Shown here piece after piece: positions 2,686 through 8,023 of a DNA stretch of 64,000 bases; position 1 is the first letter of the stretch; every line of letters starts with the position of its first letter. The notes under the pieces were generated by a model. That model was not told where the DNA came from, made no database searches, and was given only the letters and a program-made list of their open reading frames with translations. Source of the DNA: Anaerolineae bacterium (GTDB lineage Bacteria; Chloroflexota; Anaerolineae; Aggregatilineales; Aggregatilineaceae); contig JAHDLB010000043.1 in assembly GCA_018432315.1 (NCBI GenBank), forward strand, positions 1-64,000, read 5' to 3'. The position numbers and the translations under genes are program-made.

Positions 2686-3543
2686 TCACGCCCGCCCGAA
2701 CAGGCTGACCGGCGGCGCCATGTACGCCGTCGTCCCGATCGTCCGGTAGCCCAGGCGCTCGTAAAGCGGCTGGCCGCTGGGGGACGCCAGCAGGATCGAG
2801 GTGGTGATCCCCCCGGCGGCCAGGTCGTCGAGGATGGCCTGCACGAGCGTCGCGGCGAAGCGCTGGCGGCGAAACACGCGGCGCGTGCCCACGTTCCACA
2901 GCGCGGCGACGTCGCCGCAGCGGGTGACGGTGGCGCACGAGGCAGGCGTGCCGTTCGCGTAGATCAGGTAGTGGGCCACGCCGGGGTCGTCCAGGTGTTC
3001 CGGGCGCGTGATGCGCCGGTTGACGGCGTCGCTGGTGCCGAATGCCTCGGCCATGATCGGGCGCATGTGGTGCAGGTGCTCCGGCGTCGTGGCGCGGATC
3101 GCGGCGGTGTCGTCCCGGACGCGCAGACGGTGCGGCGGGCGGTCGAGCGCCATCAGCGGCGAGCTCCAGCGCAGGGTGTAGCCGCGCTCGCCCAACAGAA
3201 CCGCCGCGTCCGGCATGTACGTGTCGGTATAGATCACGCTCCACGCGGCGCGGAAGGCGGCGAAAAAGCGCGTCGCCTCGTCCAGCACCGCGGGCGTCAG
3301 CGCGCCGGGCGCGCCCGGCCAGACGTGATTCGCGCCGGTCAGGTGGCCGTCCCCGCTGTAGCTCAGCGTGCAGCCCCCGGCGGATCGCGTCACGGCGCCG
3401 GGCCAGTCGCGGAACATGGCGGCGTAGAACGCGTCGATGCACGCCTGGGCCGCTTCGAGAATGCGCTGCGACGAGGGTGAGAGCGTAATCATGGCGTCAC
3501 TCACTTTCGCCCCGGCGAGCCCTTGCCCGGCGAACGCCGTCAC
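2686..3543 (-). CDS. GNAT-family N-acetyltransferase
   Basis: The 285-residue product has a C-terminal GNAT fold, roughly residues 140-275. RRVFRRQRFAATLVQAILDD looks like the acetyl-CoA-binding motif A region and LYERLGYRTIGTTAYM is the usual GNAT motif B ending. The N-terminal 120 residues are a second, poorly conserved half, as in double-GNAT proteins. The GTG at 3543 overlaps the stop of the upstream kinase-uridylyltransferase gene by 4 nt (GTGA), which suggests translational coupling, and the codons between it and the internal ATG at 3492 have the same GC-rich third positions. The ATG at 3492 is the alternative start. The acceptor substrate is unknown. Confidence 0.8.
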   Translation of the reverse strand: MTAFAGQGLAGAKVSDAMITLSPSSQRILEAAQACIDAFYAAMFRDWPGAVTRSAGGCTLSYSGDGHLTGANHVWPGAPGALTPAVLDEATRFFAAFRAAWSVIYTDTYMPDAAVLLGERGYTLRWSSPLMALDRPPHRLRVRDDTAAIRATTPEHLHHMRPIMAEAFGTSDAVNRRITRPEHLDDPGVAHYLIYANGTPASCATVTRCGDVAALWNVGTRRVFRRQRFAATLVQAILDDLAAGGITTSILLASPSGQPLYERLGYRTIGTTAYMAPPVSLFGRA

Positions 3544-5462
3544 GCTTCGTGGAACGTGCGCAGCGTCTCCAGGTAGTATTCCGGCAGGCCGATGTCATAG
3601 CGGCGGCCATCCACGATCACCCCCAGGAAGCCGTCCTCTTTGCGCTGGCGGTCCAGCGCGGACGTGAGCTGGAATTCGCCGCGCTCGCGGACGTTGTTGC
3701 GAATGTGCTCGTCCAGATAGGCGAACAACTGCGGCTTGATGATGTACTGCCCGAAGACCGTCAGGTATTCGTCATCCGGCAGGCCGGGCACGCGCAGGTG
3801 CTCGCGGGCGTAATCCACGGTGGGCTTTTCGGCGAACTCGGTGATGTTGAGCAGGTCGCTTCGCTCGGACCAGAAGCCGGTCGCCGTGCCGAAGTTGGCG
3901 AGCTGGTCTTCGGGCGTGCGGCGCAGGCCCAACACGCTGACGCTGTGCTGGTTGAACGCGTCGAGTAACTGCTGGGCGCACGAGCGCTCGCCGTCAGAGC
4001 GGTACAGGTGATCGCCGAGCATGAGCAAAAACGGCTCGTCGCCGATCATCTCGTGGGCGGCAAAGACGGCGTGGCCCAGGCCCTCCTGCGTGCGCTGAAT
4101 GCTGAACTTCACCCGCTGGCCGATGTCGAGCAGGCGGCGGGCGTAGTCCTGGAAATGGCGCGGCAGCTTGTTGTAGTTTTCGATGGATACCTGGACGTTG
4201 AAGAACGCCTCGAAATCGGGCAGGTCGTCTTCCTGCACGATGATGATCACCTCGTCCAGCCCGGCGTTGAGCGCCTCCTCGACGATCAGCAGGATGGCCG
4301 GTTTGGCGATGCCGTCGCGATCCACGATCGGGAACAGTTCTTTCTTGGTCGCTTTGGAGGCGGGGAACAGCCGCGTGCCGAATCCCGCCGCCGGGATGAG
4401 GGCCTTGCGCACCTTCGGGCCGCTGGTGAGCGTCAGCTTGAGGCAGGGCATCTGCAGGTCGCGCTCGATGATCTCGATGACCGCCTGCTGGTCGGCCTCG
4501 CTGCGGGCGATGAACTGCGCGGTGCCGTCGCCCTGCGAGCCGACGCCTTTGCCGCCCCAGATGTGGGGCTTGAGCGGCTCGTAGCTCAGGACGCGGTGCA
4601 GCACGGGCGCGGTGAGTTCCTCGGGGCAGGCCGGGATGGCATAGCGGTCGAAGAACTCCTGCGCCTCGACCATCAGCGCGCCGATGCGCTCGGCGTCGGA
4701 CGCGCGCAGCGCCTCCATGGCCTGGTGGACGATGCGCTTGTTGATCGGCCCCAGCAGTTCCTGCACGCCGCGCTCGGTGTCGTTGTCGGCGAAGGGGAAC
4801 GACCGGTTGAGCCGGGCGAGGATCTCCATGGTGTCTTTGTGCGCCTGCAGGTCCACGATCACGAAATACAGGCTGCTGTCGACGCGCAGCTCGGTCGTGT
4901 CGAGCCGCTCGCCGTCGAACGTCATCAGGACGGGCCGGCTGCCGAAGGCACAGCCCTGGTCCATGCGCCCGCAGCGCGACGGCGTCGTGATCTCGCCCTG
5001 GTAGGCGATCTCCATTTCGCCGCGCGTGGTCAGCTTCAGGTCGTAGACGCGGTTGAACGCCCGCGCCGTGAGCACGCTGATTGCCGCGCTGGACGACAGG
5101 CCCTTCTTGGTCGGCAGATCGGTCTGGTAGTTGTCGATGACCAGCCCGCGCACATGGTAATGGGTGAGCACCTGGTAGGCCACCCCGGCCATGTAGCTCC
5201 AAAAGCCGCCGCGCTCGGCCTCGGCCAGCAGGGCCTGGGGCTCCATCGGGATTTCGACCGGGCCGTGCCGCGTGCCATCGTAGGTGGTCGAGGTGAGCAC
5301 CAGCGAGGTCGGGTGCGGCTCCACCTCGGCATGGATTCCCTGGTTGGTGCCGGTGATCAGCGCGTGGCCCCGCTCGATGTCCGCGTTGATGCGCCGGTAG
5401 CCCCCGGCCCAGTCCGAATGCTCGCCAAACAGGCATATGCGCCCTGGAACAAAGATCTTCAA
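3540..5462 (-). CDS. fused GHMP sugar kinase / GalU-like UTP-sugar-1-phosphate uridylyltransferase
   Basis: This 640-residue protein joins two enzymes. Residues 1 to about 345 are a GHMP kinase: PGRICLFGEHSDWAGGY (6-22) resembles the galactokinase-type substrate motif, KKGLSSSAAIS (near 120) is the ATP loop, and IWGGKGVGSQGDGTAQF (near 300) is the third GHMP motif. Residues from about 350 to the end are a nucleotidyltransferase: IPAAGFGTRLFPASKATKKELFPIVD is the GalU signature, followed by LGDHLY and a FAEKP loop. The inferred role is phosphorylation of a free sugar at C1 and direct conversion to a UDP-sugar in one cytosolic enzyme. Start is TTG at 5462 behind AAAGGAG. The sugar (galactose, glucuronate or other) is not readable. 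It is followed by the GNAT gene with a 4-nt overlap. Confidence 0.9.
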   Translation of the reverse strand: MKIFVPGRICLFGEHSDWAGGYRRINADIERGHALITGTNQGIHAEVEPHPTSLVLTSTTYDGTRHGPVEIPMEPQALLAEAERGGFWSYMAGVAYQVLTHYHVRGLVIDNYQTDLPTKKGLSSSAAISVLTARAFNRVYDLKLTTRGEMEIAYQGEITTPSRCGRMDQGCAFGSRPVLMTFDGERLDTTELRVDSSLYFVIVDLQAHKDTMEILARLNRSFPFADNDTERGVQELLGPINKRIVHQAMEALRASDAERIGALMVEAQEFFDRYAIPACPEELTAPVLHRVLSYEPLKPHIWGGKGVGSQGDGTAQFIARSEADQQAVIEIIERDLQMPCLKLTLTSGPKVRKALIPAAGFGTRLFPASKATKKELFPIVDRDGIAKPAILLIVEEALNAGLDEVIIIVQEDDLPDFEAFFNVQVSIENYNKLPRHFQDYARRLLDIGQRVKFSIQRTQEGLGHAVFAAHEMIGDEPFLLMLGDHLYRSDGERSCAQQLLDAFNQHSVSVLGLRRTPEDQLANFGTATGFWSERSDLLNITEFAEKPTVDYAREHLRVPGLPDDEYLTVFGQYIIKPQLFAYLDEHIRNNVRERGEFQLTSALDRQRKEDGFLGVIVDGRRYDIGLPEYYLETLRTFHEA

Positions 5463-5533: not shown

Positions 5534-8023
5534 CTAATCCGGGGCGGGCAGCAGCCCCTCGTCGGGCGGGCCGGATGCGCGGGGCGATGGCGGTGATGGC
5601 GGCGGCGCGGACGCGCGCCTGGCGTCGGGGTCGCGCACGACCTGCGGCGGCGCGTCCGGCTCCAGCGCGACCTGGTGCCCGGTCGGGAAGGCGATCGCCG
5701 TCCCATCGCCGCTGCGCTCGATCACGACGCCGTGCTGCGTCCAGCGCATCGACTCGCCGTCGAACGCGAACGGGCCGGTGATGGCGACCGCGCCCGAATC
5801 GAGCGCGTGAGCGCCGAACAGGCGCCCGAACCAGCCCAGCGAGACGACGCCGGTGATCACGTCGGCATCACCCAGGCCCTCGCCGCTGTCGGCATTGTAC
5901 AGGGCGCGGAAGGCGTGATCGCGGCGCAGGCTGGCGATCTGGGCGGCGAGGACGCGCTCGAACAACTCGACCGCCTCGCGGGTGTAGCCCCGGTCGAGCA
6001 GCGCCCACGCGATGCGGGCGTTCCACTGGGGCCACATGCCGCCGCAGCCGTTCTGGTGCGCCGGATCGTAGACCGGGCTGGTGGCCGGGCAGCCGGACAC
6101 GCCATACGCGCGCCAGTATTGGTCCGGGTCGGTGAGCATGGCGACCAGCCGCTCGACCTGTTCAGCGGCCAGCGTGCCGGTCCACAGCGGCATGAACAGC
6201 GATTGGTCGTGGGCGGACAGGTCGACGGTGCGCACCTCGACCGAGTACACGCGGCTGAGGCCGTCGAATTTGAGATACGTGATCTCGCGCCAGACGGTGC
6301 GCGTGGTGGCCGCGCCGCTGCCCCGGTACCACGTGAACGCCTCGCCGGGGATCGACTCGTTGGCCGGTTTGCCCGCCGCGTCGATGCCCTCGACCGTGCA
6401 GCCGAGGCGCGGTTTGTGGCTCAGCCCGCCGATGGCGCGCAGGATCAGGCGGCTGGGCGCGGGGAGCACCGTCCGGTCGCGCAGCGGCTGGTCGCCCTTG
6501 CCCTCGTAGACCAGCTCGCCGCGCGGCGCGGCGTGGCTGTCGCGATCGCGGTAATGAAACGCGCCGGACTCGGCGTCCCACATCTGCTCGAGGTGGCCTT
6601 GCAGCGTTTCCAGGCGCGGCTCGATAGCCTGGACGATGCCGGGGCGGTCGACCAGTTCCGCGATGCGCAGCAGGGTGTGCCCCTCGCGGATCAGGTAGGC
6701 GGCCAGGTCGGGCGCTTCGACCGTCGTCACGTCGAGGCTCTGCGCCCAGCGGTCGTTCTGGCCGAGCGTCGGGCTGCCCGCGAACGCGCCCTGGCCGAGC
6801 TGGCTCCATTCCGGCAGGCCGTCGCCGTCGCGATCGACGTCCGGCTGGAACCAGCGCTGGAAGAAGCTCACCAGCGGGTCCAGGCAGCGCGCCAGGAAGT
6901 CGCGGTCCTGGGTGACGTGGTAGACGGTATAGGCCAGCGACGCCAGCAGCGGCGGCGCCAGCACGTGGGCGCGCTGCCCGTCCAGGCCGGGGCAGGCGTC
7001 GATCCACCCGTCGTCGCGCTGCACGGCCAGGAAGTTGAGCACGATCCCCTTCGCCAGTTCCGGCGCGCTGCGGGCCACTTCGGGCGCGATCAGCAGGGCG
7101 TCGGGCATGGTCTGGCCGCCCCACGGCGCGTTGAACCCGCCCGCGTGCGCGCCCCCGGCGGCGAATCCCTGGTTGATCTTGCGCGAGGCGACGAACGAGG
7201 CATGCGGCAGGCTGCCGGTGGGCCCCAGGAAGCTGCGCAGGATCAACTGCTGGCTCCAGGCCAGGGCCGCGTCCCATTCCGGGCGCCCGGTCTCGATCTG
7301 GGCGCAGGACTTGGCGCGCGCTTCGATGGCGGTAATGTGCGCGTCCCAATCCGGTTCGGCGAGCCACTTGTAGGCGAGGCCGAGGCTCGCGTCACGTTCC
7401 GGCAGGCCGCCCAGCGCCCAGCGGACGGTGGCCCGCTCGCCCGGCGCCAGCGTGAGCGCGCGCGCCAGCCGCGAGTTCGACCCGGTGCCCGTCGCGCCCT
7501 CGACCATCAGCACAGGCTGGAGGTTGGGCAGGCGGGCGATCTGCAGCGCGGCCTGCTCGTTCTCCAGCGCGAGGAAGAACATCTGGAGCGTTTTGGTCTC
7601 GCGAGCCGCCCCGGCGCTCATCCCCGCCTGGAACGCCCGCGGCTGGTCGCCGGTGTTGTGGCAGGTCAGGCGCCCGCCGACGACCTGCGACTCGATGGCC
7701 CAGAACTCGATCGTCACGGGCAGATCGTACGTGACCGCCGCCTCCAGCCGCAGGTAGTCCGGCGCGAACGCGGTGAGCACCGGCGGCTGGTGATAGCCCT
7801 GGGCCAGATAGACCTCGCGCGAGTCAATCGTCCAGATCGGCACGAGGCGGACCAGCCCCACGCGCCCGCCATAGCGCGTTTCCAGGCTGATGGCGGGCTC
7901 CTCCGGTTTGCCCAGCCGGAGCTGCCACGTCTGGTCGTCGGCGACGTTCGTCCGCCCGGCGCGGGCGTCCGCCGAGATTCGGGGGGCCATCGGATCGGTT
8001 GCAGTCAGGCGCCATTCACGCAT
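5534..8023 (-). CDS. (alpha/alpha)6-barrel glycosidase, MGH1/GH63-like
   Basis: The 829-residue product has an N-terminal beta-rich domain (to about residue 240) and a long helical domain resembling the MGH1/GH63/GH37 six-hairpin glycosidases. Useful landmarks are GGFNAPWGGQTMPDAL (near 300), DVDRDGDGLPEWSQLGQG (near 400), a region typical of trehalase and glucosidase-like enzymes, and QNGCGGMWPQWNARIAWAL (near 670). A short Pro/Ser/Ala-rich tail ends the protein. There is no signal peptide, so it is probably cytosolic. It lies about 70 nt upstream of the kinase-uridylyltransferase and is likely co-transcribed with it, which would fit release of a sugar from an oligosaccharide followed by its activation; that link is inference. 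ATG at 8023 follows a GAGGG box. Confidence 0.82.
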   Translation of the reverse strand: MREWRLTATDPMAPRISADARAGRTNVADDQTWQLRLGKPEEPAISLETRYGGRVGLVRLVPIWTIDSREVYLAQGYHQPPVLTAFAPDYLRLEAAVTYDLPVTIEFWAIESQVVGGRLTCHNTGDQPRAFQAGMSAGAARETKTLQMFFLALENEQAALQIARLPNLQPVLMVEGATGTGSNSRLARALTLAPGERATVRWALGGLPERDASLGLAYKWLAEPDWDAHITAIEARAKSCAQIETGRPEWDAALAWSQQLILRSFLGPTGSLPHASFVASRKINQGFAAGGAHAGGFNAPWGGQTMPDALLIAPEVARSAPELAKGIVLNFLAVQRDDGWIDACPGLDGQRAHVLAPPLLASLAYTVYHVTQDRDFLARCLDPLVSFFQRWFQPDVDRDGDGLPEWSQLGQGAFAGSPTLGQNDRWAQSLDVTTVEAPDLAAYLIREGHTLLRIAELVDRPGIVQAIEPRLETLQGHLEQMWDAESGAFHYRDRDSHAAPRGELVYEGKGDQPLRDRTVLPAPSRLILRAIGGLSHKPRLGCTVEGIDAAGKPANESIPGEAFTWYRGSGAATTRTVWREITYLKFDGLSRVYSVEVRTVDLSAHDQSLFMPLWTGTLAAEQVERLVAMLTDPDQYWRAYGVSGCPATSPVYDPAHQNGCGGMWPQWNARIAWALLDRGYTREAVELFERVLAAQIASLRRDHAFRALYNADSGEGLGDADVITGVVSLGWFGRLFGAHALDSGAVAITGPFAFDGESMRWTQHGVVIERSGDGTAIAFPTGHQVALEPDAPPQVVRDPDARRASAPPPSPPSPRASGPPDEGLLPAPD

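Follow-up and report, generated by a model that had tools for sequence, protein, structure and literature searches.

The window analysed here, a stretch of 64,000 nucleotides from the genome of an Anaerolineae bacterium (Chloroflexota; contig JAHDLB010000043.1), carries on its minus strand a gene whose product joins a GHMP kinase and a GalU-type nucleotidyltransferase in a single polypeptide. An earlier note on this DNA had placed such a polypeptide at 3540-5462 without stating the strand, and these coordinates were borne out. The features of the gene, followed by its two neighbours, are given below. Residue numbers refer to the fusion protein, and invariance was scored in an alignment of 52 fusions with 46-83% identity to the window protein.

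3540..5462, minus: fusion gene, 640 aa, TTG start, stop included (open reading frame list and sequence; single match in the genome)
4416..5462, minus: N-terminal GHMP kinase half with galactokinase fold, residues 1-349 (Pfam GHMP_kinases_N; AlphaFold2 model; VIA)
5412..5426, minus: GEHSD motif (E14, H15, D17), invariant; aligned with six galactokinase-like rows
5082..5102, minus: GLSSSAA, GHMP motif 2 (L122-A127 invariant, G121 with one exception)
4956..4973, minus: CGRMDQ including D168 (C164, G165, R166, D168 and Q169 invariant)
4524..4556, minus: GGKGVGSQGDG, third GHMP motif (sequence and alignment of the 52 fusions)
3543..4415, minus: C-terminal GalU-type nucleotidyltransferase half, residues 350-640 (Pfam NTP_transferase; TIGR01099; Foldseek to 5i1f and 8f73)
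4338..4391, minus: nucleotidyltransferase signature AAGFGTRLFPASKATKKE, residues 358-375 (sequence; alignment of the 52 fusions)
4008..4019, minus: LGDH with D484 (L482, G483, D484 and H485 invariant)
3822..3830, minus: EKP, E545-P547, invariant
5534..8023, minus: upstream MGH1-like glycoside hydrolase (Pfam PF22422, 103.1 bits), 71 bases before the TTG; neighbour only
2686..3543, minus: downstream GNAT acetyltransferase, its start overlapping the fusion's stop by 4 bases; neighbour only

The reading frame runs from the TTG at 5462 to the stop at 3540 without an internal stop or frameshift, with AAAGGAG 7 bases ahead of the start. Neither a frameshift at the junction nor separate reading frames for the two halves, both raised as concerns in the earlier note, were seen in the 5.69 Mb assembled genome (G000), where the protein has one match, on contig C48 (G000:C48). 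An assembly or frameshift artefact was ruled out by the intact reading frame and by the clean full-length relatives described below. The kinase-nucleotidyltransferase fusion is a real, conserved protein.

Two folds in one chain

All three GHMP motifs listed in the earlier note are present (GEHSDWAGG at residues 13-21, GLSSSAA at 121-127 and GKGVGSQGDG at 304-313), and a Pfam search of both halves confirmed that a kinase and a GalU-like domain share the chain. GHMP_kinases_N matched residues 93-173 with 40.2 bits against a cut-off of 22.3, placing this half in the GHMP kinase superfamily. Modelled alone with AlphaFold2, the kinase half gave a predicted local distance difference test score (pLDDT) of 92.4 and a predicted template-modelling score (pTM) of 0.89. 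The VIA comparison of this half gave Z 32.9 (313 aligned, 2.4 Å) for 1s4e_F, the P. furiosus galactokinase with galactose and ADP, against 28.3 for the best mevalonate kinase, 28.0 for human GalNAc kinase, 27.9 for the heptokinase WcbL and 27.4 for the kinase part of FKP (9iit). The top-50 fold lists contained no structure called an arabinokinase or galacturonokinase, an absence that is uninformative on kinship. The galactokinase models scored well below their cut-offs (TIGR00131, 45 against 226.65; PRK03817, 60 against 443).

The kinase half shares with the galactokinase GalK its fold and the GEH.D, GLSSSA and CG..DQ motifs. Judged from sequence alignment only, GEH.D and CG..DQ are kept relative to six galactokinase-like proteins, and E14, H15 and D17 align with what we take to be the sugar-contact positions of galactokinase. 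CGRMDQ aligns with galactokinase CGIMDQ, with R166 replacing I just before D168, presumably the catalytic base. The fusion kinases differ from these rows in having W18 in place of Y, an extra stretch of ∼11 residues after motif 1 and ∼27 fewer residues later. All six galactokinase-like rows have a tyrosine in or near S.Y..RR, which we take to be a galactose contact, and the fusion kinases have no equivalent, although E, H and D are retained. R166 and K209 are invariant in the 52 fusions and R163 has one exception.

In the C-terminal half, Pfam NTP_transferase matched residues 353-632 with 66 bits against a cut-off of 21.2, so superfamily membership is clear, whereas the GalU equivalog TIGR01099 gave 170.7 bits, under its cut-off of 326.8. 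The fold and signature are those of GalU, the UTP-glucose-1-phosphate uridylyltransferase, and Foldseek matched GalU structures with uridine or UDP-glucose (5i1f, 8f73) at E 3e-22; compared with four GalU-type rows from related genomes, this half carries two insertions. D484 presumably occupies the metal-binding position, and E545-P547 would be the expected sugar or phosphate contacts. A full-length AlphaFold2 model, built with 58 fusions, had a mean pLDDT of 87.3 (just 55 in block 361-370 of the nucleotidyltransferase signature) and a pTM of 0.60, too low to fix how the two halves sit against each other. The folds abut in this model, the last strand of the kinase ending at 345 and the first of the nucleotidyltransferase starting at 353.

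Among the best 25 of 31 NCBIfam matches, the fusion protein passed no curated cut-off. The alignment of fusions has 156 columns that are invariant or have one exception, the catalytic positions of both halves included, and the kinase half is slightly more conserved (35% invariant positions against 29%). Thus, there are two intact folds in one chain, jointly conserved.

Distribution and gene neighbourhoods

A search of genome contigs found at least 587 pattern-matching stretches; of those listed, 530 encode a relative, and the best 80 (62-84% identical to the window protein) were kept. Clean full-length fusions were translated from 77 of these; of the other three, L050 contains a single stop, L051 runs off the end of its contig and L031 aligns over 1-601 only. 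In L031 (G429:C1:1618118) the frame has 868 codons and the last part may be frame-shifted. The 80 relatives were assigned to Chloroflexota, Acidobacteria, Latescibacterota, Aminicenantes, Planctomycetota, Kiritimatiellales, Sumerlaeota, Fibrobacteres/Chitinivibrionales, Poribacteria and Lentisphaerae; most are metagenome-assembled genomes, in which single taxon labels may be wrong. In an evenly drawn sample of the window's phylum, the full fusion occurred in 1 of 201 genomes, and matches in 112 others (29-41%) covered the nucleotidyltransferase half. In the class sample, 19 of 298 genomes carried a complete or nearly complete fusion and 9 more had a single half or a contig-end fragment; in the phylum of G474 the fusion was found in 27 of 288 genomes (46-64% identity). 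The earlier note had called the fusion unusual: by this sampling it is indeed patchy, yet it is widespread across bacterial phyla.

Trees were built of the kinase half (62 rows, quick method) and the nucleotidyltransferase half (56 rows); the root and long branches are uncertain. In the kinase tree, the kinase-only relatives G209 and G238 (48-49% identical) fall outside all fusions, and kinase-only G324, G231 and G757 fall inside fusion groups, so the fusion has been undone in places; in G757 the two halves are encoded apart, each on its own contig. The nucleotidyltransferase tree recovered the same large groups, with the stand-alone nucleotidyltransferases L154-L157 inside and L107, L109, L111 and L158 without firm placement near the base. 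The pattern would fit a single fusion event that was inherited and transferred. Two Acidobacteria rows and one Aminicenantes row (L045, L046, L049) lie inside the Chloroflexota group of the kinase tree; these, like the similarly labelled L023, L034, L037 and L051, may be transfers or mis-binned contigs. The stand-alone nucleotidyltransferases L107, L108 and L109 (48%) lie in clusters with genes labelled, by sequence only, as Gfo/Idh-like, sugar-isomerase-like and hexosaminidase-like.

The glycoside hydrolase, the fusion and the GNAT gene of the window all run in the same direction, and the earlier note had read the first of these (as an MGH1/GH63-like glycosidase) as the releasing step of a release, phosphorylation and activation module. 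This module was rejected, as the glycosidase is not a conserved partner: in the fetched flanks of the 80 relatives (up to 6 kb, often less) a homologue lay near only two fusions (L004, L005), on the opposite strand. The GNAT gene had no homologue (E ≤ 1e-15) among the called reading frames of the fetched neighbourhoods.

Within a set of 117 neighbourhoods, some genomes being counted twice, 9 (all outside the window's group) contained genes for UDP-glucuronate decarboxylase (UXS), nucleotide-sugar dehydrogenase or synthesis of 3'-phosphoadenosine 5'-phosphosulfate. UXS is the immediate same-strand neighbour of the fusion in five loci, upstream in L059 (45 bases) and L137 (16 bases) and downstream in L061 (21 bases), L128 (213 bases) and L142 (overlapping). 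These five are all the homologues of more than 50% identity among the called neighbourhood reading frames, and that of L059 matches human UXS1 at 415 bits. A binomial estimate of how often UXS would adjoin the fusion was set aside, since it takes no account of relatedness. A nucleotide-sugar dehydrogenase (TIGR03026, over cut-off) lies directly upstream of the fusion in L152 and L046. Their assignment as UDP-glucose dehydrogenases was tried and dropped, since NCBIfam supports the general subfamily TIGR03026, and equivalogs of the UDP-N-acetylhexosamine type score best but under cut-off.

In L057 and L074 a CysNC-type gene shares 4 bases with the fusion; a CysNC-like gene is also part of the L152 cluster, where the order is dehydrogenase, fusion, GalU-type gene, glucuronokinase-like gene (a label which, we assume, its N-terminal motif justifies), CysD and CysNC-like. 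In L074 the order is epimerase, WecB (over cut-off), CysD, CysNC with adenosine 5'-phosphosulfate kinase, fusion, Gfo/Idh-like and aminotransferase-like, the last two named from the sequence start only. This locus looks like a surface-polysaccharide operon. Taken together, the neighbourhoods hint at the supply of UDP-sugars for surface polysaccharide, and the context points tentatively to a sugar from the UDP-uronate/UDP-pentose network, no locus fixing which.

A predicted two-step enzyme

The fusion is probably a bifunctional enzyme, with activities that are predicted. In the reading that we favour, at a probability of about 0.75, a free sugar would be converted to its 1-phosphate and then to a UDP-sugar by one chain, both reactions, their order and the use of UTP being inferred. 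The N-terminal GHMP kinase would phosphorylate a free monosaccharide at the anomeric carbon with ATP, E14, H15 and D17 holding the sugar and D168 acting as the base. The GalU-type domain would then convert the sugar-1-phosphate and UTP to UDP-sugar and pyrophosphate, and the salvaged sugar would be used for glycan synthesis. The succession of phosphorylation and uridylylation had been proposed in the earlier note, and the sequence supports it as chemistry. The pairing recurs in other forms: as the two separate genes of G757, and, in at least 10 genomes, as a GalU-type gene adjoining a kinase of another, glucuronokinase-like kind.

Two characterized enzymes join similar activities. Bacteroides fragilis FKP (L-fucokinase/GDP-fucose pyrophosphorylase) likewise combines a GHMP sugar-1-kinase with a pyrophosphorylase for consecutive salvage steps, and its kinase part (9iit) shares the fold of the window's kinase half. 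In FKP the pyrophosphorylase precedes the kinase, the chain of 949 aa includes a beta-helix part and a helical linker, and the nucleotide is GTP (PMC11982464), whereas the window protein has the kinase first, a GalU-type nucleotidyltransferase, almost no linker and 640 aa. Zebrafish DrGKUP (glucuronokinase/putative UDP-glucuronate pyrophosphorylase) also pairs a GHMP sugar-1-kinase with a bacterial-type nucleotidyltransferase and yields a UDP-sugar; its nucleotidyltransferase is N-terminal and the kinase C-terminal, and this type of nucleotidyltransferase is said to occur alone in bacteria and archaea (PMC3938481). The domain order of the fusion is thus reversed relative to both enzymes. No description of a kinase-first, GalU-type fusion was found in an open-access library, which lacks most subscription journals.

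Several points weigh against a two-step enzyme of this kind. Linked genes of the kinds named above were absent from 108 of the 117 neighbourhoods, the neighbours of the Chloroflexota loci vary with none widely shared, and the transfer of context from other groups to the window's own may fail. UXS was found in all 43 class genomes, carriers or not, and its co-occurrence is uninformative. Kinase-only relatives (G324, G231, G209, G238) and nucleotidyltransferase-only relatives (G299, G249, G276, G215) indicate that the halves can work apart, and some nucleotidyltransferase-only genes lie in apparent sugar-catabolism clusters. The curated specificity models score far under their cut-offs, and the DrGKUP nucleotidyltransferase domain was nearly inactive in vitro (PMC3938481).

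Alternatives and the choice of sugar

The probability given above belongs to the general reading; routes from galactose and from glucuronate are special cases of it, distinguished by the sugar, and the likelihoods are not additive to one. With galactose as substrate, the kinase would make galactose-1-phosphate and the nucleotidyltransferase would make UDP-galactose directly, by-passing GalT. The closest solved folds are galactokinases and GEH.D and CG..DQ are kept, as this variant would have it; however, G000 has galT (C50:3600-4127) adjoining galK (C50:4749), the galT family occurs in 18 of 19 class carriers (and in 16 of 20 non-carriers), and the lost tyrosine, R166 for I and the extra 11-residue stretch depart from galactokinase. 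Galactose is unlikely because the genome has its own galT-galK pair and the kinase, by sequence alignment, lacks one presumed pocket tyrosine. Conversion of free glucuronate to UDP-glucuronate, feeding the adjacent decarboxylase, is also unlikely, if less so. UXS adjoins the fusion in five loci, R166, K209 and R163 could hold a carboxylate, and G000 has no glucuronokinase-like gene of its own, but E14, at a position which presumably faces the C6 hydroxyl in galactokinase, is invariant in the 52 fusions. Moreover, 43 fusion-carrying genomes (one of them split) were tested for the separate glucuronokinase-like gene, whose product differs from the fusion kinase: a close relative (E ≤ 1e-76) is present in 16 of them, namely 2 of the 19 class genomes and 14 of the 24 others, and a diverged match (E 1e-18 to 1e-28) in a further 8, all but one of which belong to the class. 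Four of the five genomes with an adjacent UXS are among those with a match. At E ≤ 1e-15 the gene was found in 9 of 19 class carriers and 1 of 20 non-carriers (Fisher p 0.003). This association was not used as proof, as 7 of the 9 carrier matches are diverged (E 1e-18 to 1e-22), 16 of the 20 non-carriers come from the window's order, and the five carriers of that order also lack the gene.

Two further explanations depart from salvage of a free sugar. The nucleotidyltransferase half might supply the cell's UDP-glucose, standing in for GalU with the kinase secondary, as no GalU passes the TIGR01099 cut-off in any of 43 class genomes and G000 has no better GalU-type match than the fusion (169.5 bits; the next have 101 and 80 bits, the last being RmlA over its own cut-off). 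Yet 19 of 20 non-carriers have weak GalU matches only and no fusion, so something else does GalU's job there; the remaining non-carrier, G430, possesses a GalU-type gene that scores 268.7 bits. In addition, of the 23 class genomes in which the fusion or its kinase occurs, 10 contain a further GalU-type gene (249-294 bits); a mixed set of 19 carriers includes 9 in which GalU exceeds its cut-off; and it is the kinase half that is slightly more conserved. UDP-glucose supply is improbable as the general role because there are non-carriers with neither gene and carriers with full GalU. That the kinase half acts on a non-sugar, mevalonate-like GHMP substrate, the join being without metabolic meaning, is scarcely credible: mevalonate kinase gives its best NCBIfam score, but these 69 bits are far under the cut-off of 163.05, the fold is closer to galactokinase by the Z scores above, and the fused nucleotidyltransferase is conserved jointly with it.

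For the two-step salvage enzyme, it is possible, though less likely than not, that the sugar lies in the UDP-uronate/UDP-pentose network and is neither galactose nor glucuronate. The fullest version of the proposal is possible but doubtful: a family of kinase-first, UDP-specific salvage enzymes in about ten bacterial phyla, spread by descent and transfer, with a new GHMP sugar specificity (neither galactose nor glucuronate) and feeding the UDP-uronate/UDP-pentose pools of sulfated surface polysaccharides.

Other kinases and GalU-type genes were met in the same genomes. G000 has two further matches to the galactokinase signature family (G000:C29:46034, L116; G000:C51:134309, L117), and the L116 protein has GSHTDY instead of GEHTDY, hinting at a different sugar. 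A glucuronokinase-like kinase lies beside a GalU-type gene in G231 (C75:10267-12139, L103), G324, G218, G317, G430 (a non-carrier of the fusion), G474, G476, G478, G479 and G484, and the same pair occurs in L152:10337-12265. This pair may be the bacterial two-gene counterpart of the zebrafish fusion, and some 'GalU' genes may be UDP-glucuronate pyrophosphorylases. In G231 the kinase-only relative of the fusion lies ∼1.2 kb from such a pair, as if it borrowed its nucleotidyltransferase from there. A second, diverged GalU-like/kinase pair, whose kinase starts with a SAPGRAG.IGNP.DMYGG-type motif, was seen in several fusion carriers (L118, L120, L121 and L122, in G270, G274, G212 and G239). In L158:5936-8557 (G580), a kinase matching the AbGHMP structure (9ulx, E 1.9e-100), on which no paper was found, lies directly upstream of a stand-alone nucleotidyltransferase related to the fusion's half.

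If the two-step reading is correct, a single protein taking free sugar to UDP-sugar in two steps would account for sugar reuse in many uncultured bacteria, and 'GalU' or 'galactokinase' labels in these genomes would need correction. The protein would also be a possible one-pot enzyme for UDP-sugar production.

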